From: Flavobacterium geliluteum
Lineage (GTDB): Bacteria > Bacteroidota > Bacteroidia > Flavobacteriales > Flavobacteriaceae
Assembly: GCF_017948595.1 (NCBI RefSeq)
Contig: NZ_JAGFBV010000021.1
Location: 1 to 64,000, forward strand
DNA: 64,000 bases
Direction: 5' to 3'
Shown here: one piece after another, positions 1,039 through 60,568 of the stretch
Position numbering within the stretch: position 1 is the first letter of the stretch
How the letters are laid out: every line of letters starts with the position of its first letter
Notes under the pieces: generated by a model
The model's database searches: none
What the model was told of the DNA's origin: nothing
Seen by the model: only the letters and a program-made list of their open reading frames with translations
Made by a program: the position numbers and the translations under genes

Positions 1039-1040
1039 CA

Positions 1041-1119
1041 CCCGTTATCACGAATCTCGTAAAGAGATAGCAACCTGCAACAACGAGCAAGGTGCTAAAA
1101 CGATAAGCCAAATCCTTTG
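1041..1119 (+). promoter_or_regulatory. Compact S-box-like (SAM riboswitch-like) leader
   Basis: The leader has three features of the SAM-I (S-box) aptamer in the right order. TTATC at 1045-1049 can pair with GATAA at 1102-1106 as helix P1. AGCAACC at 1069-1075 and AAGGTGCTAAA at 1089-1099 match the S-box signatures that flank P3. Between P1 and AGCAACC there is a small hairpin, ATCTC/GAGAT (1054-1068), in place of the usual P2 with its GAGGGA kink-turn motif. P4 is also missing. A further hairpin CCAAA/TTTGG lies at 1108-1120. The element precedes a NhaC-family gene, and the NhaC-type transporter MetT is a known S-box target in other phyla. The reduced architecture makes SAM binding uncertain; it may be a variant class or a decayed riboswitch. 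Confidence 0.5.
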
Positions 1120-1194
1120 GAAAAAATGTTGTCATTCGCATTGCCATTTCAGATTTGCTTGTCGTTGTAAATGTTTCATTTTATAATTTACTTT

Positions 1195-2580: not shown

Positions 2581-2701
2581 ACAAGTCGTTCATAGCCCTG
2601 ATAGAAGTGGAAATCCTTTTGTGTTTTTTCTTTAAAAACATAAAAGATTGAAGCGGATAGCAGGAATAGCTACTAAATAAAAATAAAAATTAATTTTGAA
2701 T

Positions 2702-10017: not shown

Positions 10018-10105
10018 CAGGAGCTATTTCCTGCTGTCCGCTGTATCTTTTTATTTTTAAAGAAAAAATAAAAAGGATGCCGCTTCCATCAGGGCTAGGG
10101 CTTTA
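10018..10105. repeat. Palindromic interspersed element (REP-like)
   Basis: The core is a near-perfect palindrome, CTTTTTATTTTT/AAAAAATAAAAAG (about 10047-10078). It is flanked by GGAGCTATTTCCTGCTGTCC on the left and GCCGCTTCCATCAGGGCTAG on the right, which have short complementary words (CCTG/CAGG, AGC/GCT). I recall similar GGAGCTATTTCC ... CAGGGCTAGGG elements scattered between genes in other flavobacteria, but could not check this. It has no convincing coding potential. Confidence 0.5.
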
Positions 10106-29047: not shown

Positions 29048-29097
29048 TAAGTAAATATGGAATAGTTAGGAAAATTGAACCCGAAAAAAGGTATTTT

Positions 29098-29300
29098 GGG
29101 GTTCTAAGGCCCAGCGATGGGGTTCCGAACCCCAACGATGGGGTATTGCACCCCAAATTTGGGGTTCCAGACGTCAAATTTGGGGTTCCGAACCTCAAAA
29201 ATGGGGTTTGTAGGGGCCAAATTTGACGTCTCGAACCTCATCAATGGGGTTCGGAACCCCATCAGAGGAGTAAACAACCCCAACGGAGGAGTAAAAAATA
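29098..29300 (+). repeat. 21-nt-periodic palindromic repeat array, locus 1
   Basis: About nine to ten units of 21 nt, each starting GGGGTT and mostly ending CAACGAT or CAAATTT, fill this gap; the phase slips by one base near 29223. Unit 2 is GGGGTTCCGAACCCC plus AACGAT. The segment GACGTCAAATTTGGGG (29170-29185) is identical to one at the edge of locus 2 (44285-44300). The consensus equals the locus 2 unit read on the other strand. Open frames cross it on both strands only because the period is a multiple of three. Confidence 0.75.
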
Positions 29301-29514
29301 CTTATGGTTGATGATTTTACTTCAATAGACCATTAATAAGGTTATAAAAACTCATAACTAAATAAGTAACGTACAGAGTAGAGCGTTTTAGTGAAATTAT
29401 CATTTTAATTTGTATTTTCGAACAATAAAAAATATCAGGTTTTAAATTATTCAAAATAAAATTTAGAACACAATTGACACTAATTACAACAGACGACACC
29501 GTAACATTCCTACT

Positions 29515-43494: not shown

Positions 43495-44082
43495 TTATTT
43501 TTTATCTAAATTTTGTTTGAGCATTTTGGCATGTTCCAAATGTGCGGTCATACCTGCAATACTATTAGAAGCCCAAAGTTTAACGTCTTGATCTGTCGCG
43601 TCTTCAGAAGCTTTTCTAAGTTTATCAATTGCTTTTTGGTGACCATCGATCATCATATCTGCAAACTTTTTGTCAAAATCAGTACCTGATTTCTCGTTTA
43701 GTTGGTTGTATTCTTCCTTACCATCTTCGGTAATTGCAACTGGCAAAGTAATGTTTTTGGCATCTGCCAAAGCACTTACTTCAGTAGCCGCTTTAGTGTG
43801 CTCGTCTACCAACATTTTACCAAACTTTTTTACTTCGGAGTTGGTACTTTTTATCTGAGCTAATTTTCCAATTTCAATTTCAGCCAAATTCACTTCGGCA
43901 ATATCAACAAGAAATTCAGAATCATTTTTGGTGTCCTCAATAGAGTCAAATTTGGCTTCATTAGTATCTTCGGCAACTTCTTTAGGATCTTCTTGTTTTG
44001 CTTCGTTTTTGCACGATTGCAAAAAGATAATAATAAGTCCTGCGCCTAAAATCAATTTGCTGGCTAATAGTATTTTTTTCAT
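43495..44082 (-). CDS. DUF4142 lipoprotein
   Basis: The 195-residue protein has a lipoprotein signal (lipid-modified Cys near residue 24 in IFLQSC) and an acidic linker (EDPKEVAEDTNEAKFDSIEDTKND). A DUF4142 helical domain follows (DIAEVNLAEIEIGKLAQIKSTNSEVKKFGKMLVDEHTKAATE and FADMMIDGHQKAIDKLRKASEDATD). The domain is a ferritin-like bundle of unknown function, often induced by stress in Bacteroidetes. It ends before a strong terminator. Confidence 0.9.
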   Translation of the reverse strand: MKKILLASKLILGAGLIIIFLQSCKNEAKQEDPKEVAEDTNEAKFDSIEDTKNDSEFLVDIAEVNLAEIEIGKLAQIKSTNSEVKKFGKMLVDEHTKAATEVSALADAKNITLPVAITEDGKEEYNQLNEKSGTDFDKKFADMMIDGHQKAIDKLRKASEDATDQDVKLWASNSIAGMTAHLEHAKMLKQNLDKK

Positions 44083-44265: not shown

Positions 44266-44300
44266 CCCCAAATTTGACGTCAGAGACGTCAAATTTGGGG
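44266..44300. repeat. Perfect 16-bp palindrome capping the 21-nt array
   Basis: CCCCAAATTTGACGTC (44266-44281) and GACGTCAAATTTGGGG (44285-44300) are exact reverse complements with a 3-base loop. The second arm is identical to 29170-29185 in locus 1. Confidence 0.9.
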
Positions 44301-44931
44301 TTCGGAACCCCATCGTTTAGGTTCGGAACCCCATCGTTTAGGTTCGGAACCCCATCGTTTAGGTTCGGAACCCCATCGTTTAGGTTCGGAACCCCATCGT
44401 TTAGGTTCAGAACCCCATCGTTTAGGTTCGGAACCCCATCGTTCAGGTTCGGAACCCCATCGTTCAGGTTCGGAACCCCATCGTTCAGGTTCGGAACCCC
44501 ATCGTTCAGGTTCGGAACCCCATCGTTCAGGTTCGGAACCCCATCGTTCAGGTTCGGAACCCCATTGTTCAAGTTCGGAACCCCATTGTTCAGGTTTGGA
44601 ACCCCATCGTTTAGGTTTGGAACCCCATTGTTGAGGTTTGGAACCCCATCGTTTAGATTTGGAACCCCATTGTTGAGGTTCGGAACCCCATCGTTTAGGT
44701 TCAGAACCCCGTAACATTATGTCAGAACCCCACAACTTCTTGTCAGAACCTCACGACTTTATGTTGAAACCCCATAACATTATGTCAAAGCCCTATGACT
44801 TCTTGTTAAAGCTCCTTGACTTTATATTAGAACCTTATAGCTTTATGTTAAAACTGCATAGCTTTATGTTAAAACCTCTCAATTTATATTCAGAACCCCG
44901 TGAGTTCTATTCAGAACAGCATAATAGGAGA
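44301..44931. repeat. 21-nt tandem repeat array, locus 2 (30 units)
   Basis: Thirty consecutive 21-nt units. The first 19 (44301-44699) are nearly identical, each carrying TTCGGAACCCCATCG and then a short TTTAGG or TTCAGG variable end. Units 20-30 (44700-44931) keep the length and a (T/C)AGAACCCC-like start but diverge strongly toward CTTTATG ends. On the minus strand the unit starts GGGGTTCCGAACC and ends AACGAT, the same family as locus 1. Changes between units are grouped (TTTAGG, TTCAGG, TTGAGG), the pattern of stepwise local duplication. Four long open frames cross it, in different frames for the two halves, so it is not one coding sequence. No spacers exist, so it is not a CRISPR array. 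Confidence 0.92.
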
Positions 44932-45170: not shown

Positions 45171-45731
45171 ATGAAAAGATTTAAAAAAATGACAATAGCG
45201 GTGTTGATACTTACGTCACTGTTTTCTTTTAGGTTTGCGAATGAAAAAGTAGTTGAATTTAGTTTTCCAAAAAGAAATAACACTACTATTACCTTAAATG
45301 CTACTAATTTTGAAGGTTTTACAGAGGAGTGGAGAGGAACAGATTACTATTATTTAGGGACAAGTAAAGATTCGATAATTTGTTCTGTGTATTATTTCAA
45401 GCTAAATAAAGAAGAGCAAAAATATATGGTAGAGCCTTTTGGAGGAGTTGCTATGGCGGGTATTCCTATGATTTATTTTTCTGATAATTCTCCTTTAAAA
45501 AAATACGAAGTAAACAAATCGGGTTGGGGAAACATTACAGATGATTTTATGTTTAGACAATGTGATATACTGGAATATGAGGGAATCAAAATGAGACAAA
45601 AGAATATGTATGCGTATGGTATGTTTGATAATGATTTGTTTGTAAGCGTTCATTTATCTAAAGAAAATTATACTTTGCGAGATTCAACGGCAATGAGGCA
45701 GCTATTACATTCTATAAAAAAGAAAAAGTAA
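45171..45731 (+). CDS. Exported hypothetical protein
   Basis: A 186-residue protein with an N-terminal signal segment (MKRFKKMTIAVLILTSLFSFRFA) and then a charged, aromatic domain with no recognised family. The internal MVEPFGGVAMAGIPMIYFSD stretch is unusually hydrophobic but short. It is the first of three unknown small genes following the 21-nt array. Confidence 0.65.
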   Translation: MKRFKKMTIAVLILTSLFSFRFANEKVVEFSFPKRNNTTITLNATNFEGFTEEWRGTDYYYLGTSKDSIICSVYYFKLNKEEQKYMVEPFGGVAMAGIPMIYFSDNSPLKKYEVNKSGWGNITDDFMFRQCDILEYEGIKMRQKNMYAYGMFDNDLFVSVHLSKENYTLRDSTAMRQLLHSIKKKK

Positions 45732-60031: not shown

Positions 60032-60568
60032 ATGATAAGAAAAAAAATAGTTCCAAATCCAACACAGGAAGCTGTAGTCAACGAGGAAGTACATTCAGAT
60101 GAAAATACGGTAATTGCTTCAGATGCAATTGCTTCTGAAAGTGTTGAAAAACAACCGGATTCGATAAATGAAAACGCAAAGCCTATAAAAAGAACGGTTA
60201 GAAAAATACCTCTTATAGTTTCAGAAGAAATTACATCTGAAAATTCAGAGTTTTCTTCTTCAGAGTCTTTAGAAATAGTCGAAGATTTTGTTGCAGATGA
60301 GAAAAAAACAAAGAAAGAAAAGAAAGACAAACTAGCTGGAAAAGAGGAGAAAGAAGCACTATCGAAAGGTAAAGCTAAAAAGAAGTCTAAAAAGCAAAAA
60401 AAGAAAGTTAAGGCTCAAAAAAAGAAGGCTCAGAAGGAAAAACAGAAAGAAAAAGCAAAGGATAAAAAGAAGAAGAAAAAGCTGAAAATAAAAGAGAAAA
60501 ATGCTAAAATAAAAAAGAAAGCAATGAAAAAATTGCGAAAACTTTTGAAAAAGAAAAGCAAAAAGTAA
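60032..60568 (+). CDS. Lysine-rich low-complexity protein
   Basis: The 178-residue protein has an acidic N-terminal half with Glu/Ser/Asp runs (about 1-100) and a C-terminal half that is more than 60% Lys, mixed with Glu, Ala, Gln and Ser. The tail is reminiscent of histone H1-like or ribosome-associated basic tails, and could bind nucleic acid. The composition alone cannot show this. A -7 element is not obvious; the terminator follows immediately. Confidence 0.65.
   Translation: MIRKKIVPNPTQEAVVNEEVHSDENTVIASDAIASESVEKQPDSINENAKPIKRTVRKIPLIVSEEITSENSEFSSSESLEIVEDFVADEKKTKKEKKDKLAGKEEKEALSKGKAKKKSKKQKKKVKAQKKKAQKEKQKEKAKDKKKKKKLKIKEKNAKIKKKAMKKLRKLLKKKSKK

Follow-up and report, generated by a model that had tools for sequence, protein, structure and literature searches.

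A 21-nt tandem array of Flavobacterium geliluteum, interpreted as belonging to a family of helically phased minisatellites, recently expanded and partly decayed

A long run of 21-nt units between two genes of Flavobacterium geliluteum raises the question of what kind of element it is and whether it acts at the level of protein, RNA or DNA. The array lies in the window, by which we mean the whole analysed stretch of 64,000 nt. Cut in register, positions 44294-44923 yield exactly 30 in-phase units with a step of 21 throughout and no other step, and thus the thirty units in unbroken phase described by a sequence-only reading were recovered. Its split into 19 and 11 units, however, requires correction. 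By TRF and register alignment against the consensus GTTTAGGTTCGGAACCCCATC, 20 near-identical units (44294-44713, 18-21 of 21 positions in agreement) are followed in the same phase by 10 diverged units (44714-44923, 8-15 of 21 positions). With TRF, a 21-nt unit is repeated 19.6 times at 44299-44710 (score 670, 94% matches, no indels); weaker rows of 21, 42 and 63 nt lie across 44683-44878. The 63-nt row covers 44683-44806, and units 21-26 read as a three-unit higher-order repeat. Identity at lag 21 amounts to 0.94 in the first part, 0.66 in the second and 0.84 over the entire array, while the best lag among 10-44 reached at most 0.35, 0.40 and 0.32, respectively, in 300 Markov resamples. The sequence variants are grouped, as had been noticed before: TTTAGG occupies units 2-7 and TTCAGG units 8-15 (unit 14 reads TTCAAG), and in units 16-20 TTTAGG alternates with TTGAGG (unit 18 reads TTTAGA). 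This clustering among neighbouring units supports the earlier suggestion of recent stepwise duplication.

Directly upstream and in phase lies the palindromic unit TTTGACGTCAGAGACGTCAAA (44273-44293), which is the least decayed unit of the array. It is enclosed by a perfect 16-bp inverted repeat at the left edge (44266-44300; CCCCAAATTTGACGTC, loop AGA, GACGTCAAATTTGGGG) that appears as a hairpin in folds of both strands. The flanking genes form a divergent pair, both with their 5' ends towards the array. To the left, an open reading frame on the minus strand (43495-44082) encodes a DUF4142 protein according to Pfam, and to the right a plus-strand frame (45171-45731) encodes a hypothetical protein without Pfam match, which was found in 5 other genomes among 398 at 47-55% identity. 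Among the same 398 genomes, which lack a close relative, an empty site was not found. That the array is an assembly artefact is unlikely, since it lies inside an 84-kb contig and similar arrays occur in independent assemblies.

Does the array encode protein? In the first half, one plus and two minus frames are open, and one minus frame gives a Pfam hit to PF04513, at 22.1 bits below the cut-off of 38. Such findings could point to the remnant of a protein with 7-residue repeats, which we nevertheless consider scarcely credible. A unit of 21 nt is divisible by 3 and has no stops in these frames, which is why they are open; they start with TTG only, and none of the four frames searched matches a Pfam family at cut-off. 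The plus frame shuts at 44714 and another opens at 44719, exactly the change of frame that had been pointed out from the letters. In the second half stops occur in all three minus frames, so that no single frame stays open throughout, and sibling arrays contain stop-bearing units and some 22-nt units. Protein coding was consequently rejected on frame loss and Pfam searches, in agreement with the earlier view.

The array is real, but it is not the lone case that it first appeared to be. It is a member of a non-coding, dispersed intergenic family with a 21-nt period, which comprises many arrays in its own genome and further ones in other Flavobacterium species. BLAST of the array against the source genome gave 21 matches, itself among them. 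The motif GGGTTCNGAACC matched 57 times on both strands against 3 matches of the backwards pattern, with many sites counted twice, as those ending in CCC score on both strands. Twelve further regions, picked because they matched, all display period 21 (12/12), and locus L050 used as query gave 70 matches in the same genome. A second family array was found in the window itself at 29095-29304; it consists of 10 degenerate units with three AAATTT and is strongly curved in the wedge model described below. Seven family arrays were counted in a 457-kb sample of the source genome made up of contig C25, 20 kb of C36 and the window, five of them on C25 and two in the window; the main array had been listed as coding owing to a spurious frame and was counted nonetheless. 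Naive scaling leads to an order of 65 arrays in the 4.38-Mb genome, a figure inflated by the choice of sample, as arrays on C25 were known beforehand and the window was supplied on account of one. In intergenic pieces of 150 nt or more from this sample, with the window array unmasked by hand, autocorrelation is highest at lags 21, 42 and 63 (z 14.2, 8.9 and 8.8).

Position relative to genes gave a less specific picture. The regions of own DNA with period 21 were restricted to those that have a gene on either side within the locus; 34 remained, a few of them weak and not family arrays, and 31 of the 34 are intergenic with respect to the called genes. The genes around these 31 are oriented in tandem in 19 cases, convergently in 7 and divergently in 5; the corresponding numbers for ordinary gaps on C25 that measure 200 nt or more are 48, 9 and 20. 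Thus orientation is near background, and a fixed relation to genes was not found for these 31 regions. Of the 19 tandem gaps, only 12 have the array closer to the 3' end of the gene before it, too few to claim a bias. A promoter or terminator role was likewise rejected: besides the near-background orientation, the pattern scan of the region gave 5 promoter-like sites, where shuffles average 2.6 (sd 1.8), and not a single terminator.

What unites the family is the anatomy of its units. Each consists of a pair of inverted half-sites of the type TTTG-A/G-C/G-G-T, usually joined at AAATTT and drawn from a small vocabulary (TTTGGGGT, TTTGACGT, TTTGAGGT, TTTAGGT, GATGGGGT), to which two arrays of the source genome add TTTCACGT. 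As every unit comprises two inverted half-sites, a dyad axis recurs every 10.5 bp. In 20 of 27 arrays, the two best dyad phases are separated by precisely half the period, a consequence of the fact that one dyad together with the period implies a second. In well-kept copies AAATTT follows at intervals of 21-22 bp, once per two turns of the helix. The 86 non-redundant spacings between neighbouring CAAATTTG blocks within 60 nt are 21 (51 cases), 22 (9), 42 (19), 43 (6) or 44 (1) and no others; as most of these loci were chosen for their likeness to arrays, the numbers describe the family and are not a survey. The unit of the window array, a TTTAGG half-site plus a GATGGGG half-site, fits the vocabulary, and the near-palindrome GGTTCGGAACC noted in it from the beginning was confirmed. 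The GGTTCGGAACC core is, however, not what the family has in common: the family-wide feature is the inverted half-site pair around AAATTT with its 21-22 bp spacing, and AAATTT is absent from the 20 repeated units of the window array.

Curvature was predicted with a dinucleotide wedge model, using provisional parameters, and with a second, cruder model that considers AA only. The wedge model gives 112-180 degrees per 105 bp for 17 of 20 own arrays, above all 73 array-free intergenic pieces of C25 (mean 49, maximum 87 degrees per 105 bp). Compared with permutations that preserve both period and dyad, 25 of 33 stretches rank at 0.95 or higher in the wedge model and 15 of 33 in the AA-only model, although the 33 are not independent and include seven homologous copies of a subgroup of arrays, class B, and three overlapping cuts of the window array. 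Well-kept family arrays are thus predicted to be strongly curved DNA. The window array itself, with 83 degrees per 105 bp and ranks of 0.87 and 0.78 in the two models, is not significantly curved; neither are L040 and L042 nor the unrelated period-21/42 arrays G420_7k, G010_29k and G010_186k, and the two models disagree on L127 (ranks of 0.99 and 0.20). Among the seven class-B copies, AAA/TTT positions differ at a rate of 0.068 versus 0.196 elsewhere. The other A/T columns differ at 0.169 (p 0.00025), or at 0.135 if loop phases are excluded (p 0.01). The copies compared are homologous, and their columns not fully independent.

How do such arrays change? On average over 27 arrays, direct neighbour units are most alike (5.5 of 9 positions), and the agreement falls to 4.0 at six units; inverted comparisons range from 4.3 down to 3.8. 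Most differences between copies of the same element concern whole units, and the large internal gaps measure 21, 42, 84 or n x 21 + 1 nt. The similarity of neighbours together with the whole-unit differences indicates that unit slippage or unequal recombination lengthens and shortens the arrays. Inverted symmetry is therefore mainly a feature of the consensus, while turnover proceeds by duplication of units. A CRISPR array was excluded, as units are contiguous and neighbours most alike, rather than near-identical repeats with unique spacers in between. One might go further and assume that slippage and unequal recombination are all there is, i.e., that the family is a neutral or selfish minisatellite whose period, half-sites and AAATTT persist by descent. 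We regard this as nearly as likely as the bend-based reading preferred below. The decay of similarity with distance between units, the grouped variants and the 63-nt higher-order repeat of the window array would be explained, and so would the near-background gene orientation, the patchy distribution and the loss of AAATTT from the repeated units of the window array. On the other hand, neutral turnover does not readily account for the lower variation of AAA/TTT positions relative to other A/T columns, for listed spacings that hold at 21-22 or 42-44 despite divergence of the loops, or for 25 of 33 stretches being more curved than controls of equal period and dyad.

Inverted half-sites would also be expected of an RNA element, whose transcripts might form a row of hairpins and serve as 3' UTR stabiliser, attenuator or sponge. 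Both strands of the window array indeed fold better than shuffles (z -5.0 and -5.7, 20 shuffles each), L050 reaches z -7.6, and the L264 array in genome G201 begins a few nt past an apparent stop codon. Furthermore, the matching of arms exceeds permutation, with a summed z of 5.3 within units and 6.0 across boundaries for 27 arrays including homologous copies, and of 3.5 and 5.0 for 25 less redundant arrays. However, good folding of both strands is expected for any array of inverted half-sites, and arms match only slightly better than in permutations, within units no more so than across their boundaries. Around AAATTT only the first base (z 3.9 in own arrays, 6.1 in others) and weakly the third (2.0 in own arrays) covary. 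Since covariation is this weak and inside units does not exceed that across boundaries, it speaks against selection for base pairing. Rfam gave no match at gathering score over the window array, and all hits over the arrays of nine sibling loci were sub-threshold. An RNA element is accordingly disfavoured and, in our opinion, very improbable.

To see how far the family reaches beyond its source genome, a spacing scan was run with the pattern CAAATTTGN{3,30}CAAATTTGN{3,30}CAAATTTG, i.e., three CAAATTTG blocks with free gaps of 3-30. It matched 8 of 368 Flavobacterium genomes at 92 overlapping sites, 66 of them in G201, compared with one match each in 2 of 368 genomes for a reversed control (TnAn type). 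Among the matches listed (50 rows, or 31 distinct sites of the 92), all spacings were 21 or 22. Another spacing scan found 21 in the source genome and G201 and 22 in G101, with 0 for the control. L050 matched 5 of 60 relatives including its own genome; G010 and G014 carry 21-nt arrays, and G006 and G026 matched outside the array of L050, at places where period 21 was not seen. A BLAST search with L113, an array of 579 nt from Flavobacterium hydrocarbonoxydans GA093, found matches in 29 of 398 genomes of the genus, among them the source genome and G201, in which the matching stretch is identical. The distribution is thus patchy, with 8/368 genomes by pattern and 29/398 by BLAST. An order-wide draw of 366 genomes produced the pattern in the source genome, G282 and G536. 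Outside the genus, pattern and control each matched 1 of 333 genomes (G536, from another family, and G604), and since both are equal the count alone proves nothing. The G536 site nevertheless lies within an array of about a dozen 21-nt units that share the half-sites of the family. Matches in G187 and G246, with a spacing of 39, look unrelated and were set aside, and three Paenibacillus matches in one common sequence context without periodicity were taken as chance. In intergenic autocorrelations, lag 21 is on top in G010 (z 5.0) and present in G201 (z 3.6) and G022 (z 2.5), where lag 12 is higher, while G420 has lag 7 on top and 42, 43 and 22 beneath it. Some period-21 and period-42 arrays of G010 and G420 consist of unrelated units without AAATTT. 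Separately, contig C1 of G420 harbors AT-rich 22-nt units (ATACTTTTTGTATAAATCATTT and variants) at 270330-270766 (L236), which also span about two helical turns and are unrelated in sequence.

The dispersal of copies in the source genome could be attributed to a MITE-type mobile element, with a transposase acting on leader and tail sequences and moving the array between loci. The nearest system in kind is BrickBuilt of Porphyromonas gingivalis, a minisatellite/MITE with a 23-nt unit present in 1 to 22.8 units, some copies with leader and tail, with matches in P. gingivalis and P. gulae and IS5-like terminal inverted repeats (PMC4596501). Both occur in Bacteroidetes as dispersed, non-identical intergenic copies of a short tandem unit, and many non-identical copies between genes (31 of 34 regions) are what we found here as well. 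Class-B arrays share a head of about 230 bp in six of seven cases (L049 retains only its end) and a common tail, ACGAxCTGTTTTTTG, as such an element would predict. However, the window array and the class-A arrays possess neither this head nor this tail, so that an equivalent of the BrickBuilt leader and tail is missing from the window array, and several class-B heads begin runs resembling gene cassettes. The unit lengths differ (23 nt against 21 nt in the window array and 21-22 spacing in its siblings), and the part of the BrickBuilt report considered here describes no phased AAATTT or two-turn architecture (PMC4596501). One exact-pattern scan of IMG/VR for each of two patterns found nothing; nor did plasmid searches by blastn with the window array and one class-B element and by tblastn with one frame, or a phage search by blastn with the class-B element as the only query. 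A phage or plasmid origin was rejected on these empty searches, which speak against a MITE as well, and we consider transposition of this type quite improbable.

A reading at the level of DNA fits best. We prefer, as an unproven reading with a probability of roughly 0.4, that intact arrays act as a phased-bend platform for a dimeric or nucleoid-associated protein. Dyads every 10.5 bp would line up along one face of the helix, which would be bent at AAATTT every two turns, and the arrays would offer a putative protein of this kind a cooperative one-face platform. Amplified by unit slippage, they may be tolerated between genes. This preference is tempered by the non-significant curvature of the window array and of the other arrays named above, the weaker result of the AA-only model, the patchy distribution and the absence of a fixed relation to genes. 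The window array, itself a locally expanded copy, has lost most of its AAATTT and may no longer work as a bend platform. In our reading it belongs to a helically phased minisatellite family and has recently expanded and partly decayed, and the recent expansion of units free of AAATTT looks more like drift than function. A more far-reaching version of the bend reading, in which arrays of Flavobacteriia are strongly bent blocks of AAATTT-joined half-sites whose one-face dyads are bound cooperatively by a putative dimeric or bridging chromosomal protein, as a bacterial counterpart of a chromatin-organising satellite, appears rather unlikely.

Inverted half-sites, a strict 21-22 period and a location between genes were found in the window array and its relatives alike, and no description of this 21-nt family came up in the open-access literature searched; the array therefore remains without the class name that the sequence-only reading could not assign either. 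Dispersed non-coding satellites are reported to be rare in prokaryotes, and the only long-repeat families of this type reported are the transposed satellites of Leptospira interrogans and Methanocella conradii (PMC6749651). These are likewise non-coding and spread over the genome, whereas their units of 37-69 nt are longer than 21 nt, and the portion of that paper used here describes no 21-nt Flavobacterium family (PMC6749651). Helix-phased short A/T runs are known from prokaryotic genomes, where nucleoid compaction with bridging proteins was proposed (PMC3940949). That signal is genome-wide at about 10-11 bp (PMC3940949), in contrast to the discrete arrays found here, with AAATTT every 21-22 bp within inverted half-sites. 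Within the same genus, VNTR loci of F. psychrophilum are also mostly intergenic, yet comprise units of 4-9 nt with unrelated sequences (PMC4501049). Taken alone, the window array is of modest interest. As a family, however, the arrays keep a fixed period of two turns, inverted half-sites and predicted curvature through sequence turnover, and offer a concrete, testable link between satellites and nucleoid architecture in Bacteroidota.

Several minor observations were made along the way. In the source genome, the class-B head opens runs of small unrelated genes at L096 600-6700 (C68) and L097 3800-9200 (C19). Three of these genes begin MAGINKL..., one lies above the Pfam cut-off for DpnII-MboI, one has a sub-threshold GIY-YIG hit, and others were judged ParDE- and HNH-like by eye only. 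Between the genes of L096, attC-like sites are repeated as in an integron cassette array. A search for an integron integrase returned only tyrosine recombinases below cut-off (best 113 bits against 265), signals that 14 control genomes give as well. Three small genes that look similar by eye, beginning MSLENLN... (L098 6834-7319, L110 7498-7992 and L102 1577-2068), have a 21-nt array 50 to 213 nt behind each 3' end and match no Pfam family at cut-off. Flavo-1 RNAs (Rfam RF01705) were detected in the window at 2590-2671 (+) and 10023-10100 (-) and at L050 1422-1522, the last some 160 nt after a 21-nt array. The window further contains a SAM-I/IV riboswitch above gathering score at 1040-1136 (+) and, at 60377-60533, A/G-rich tandem repeats of about 20-26 nt whose sequence is unlike that of the 21-nt family.
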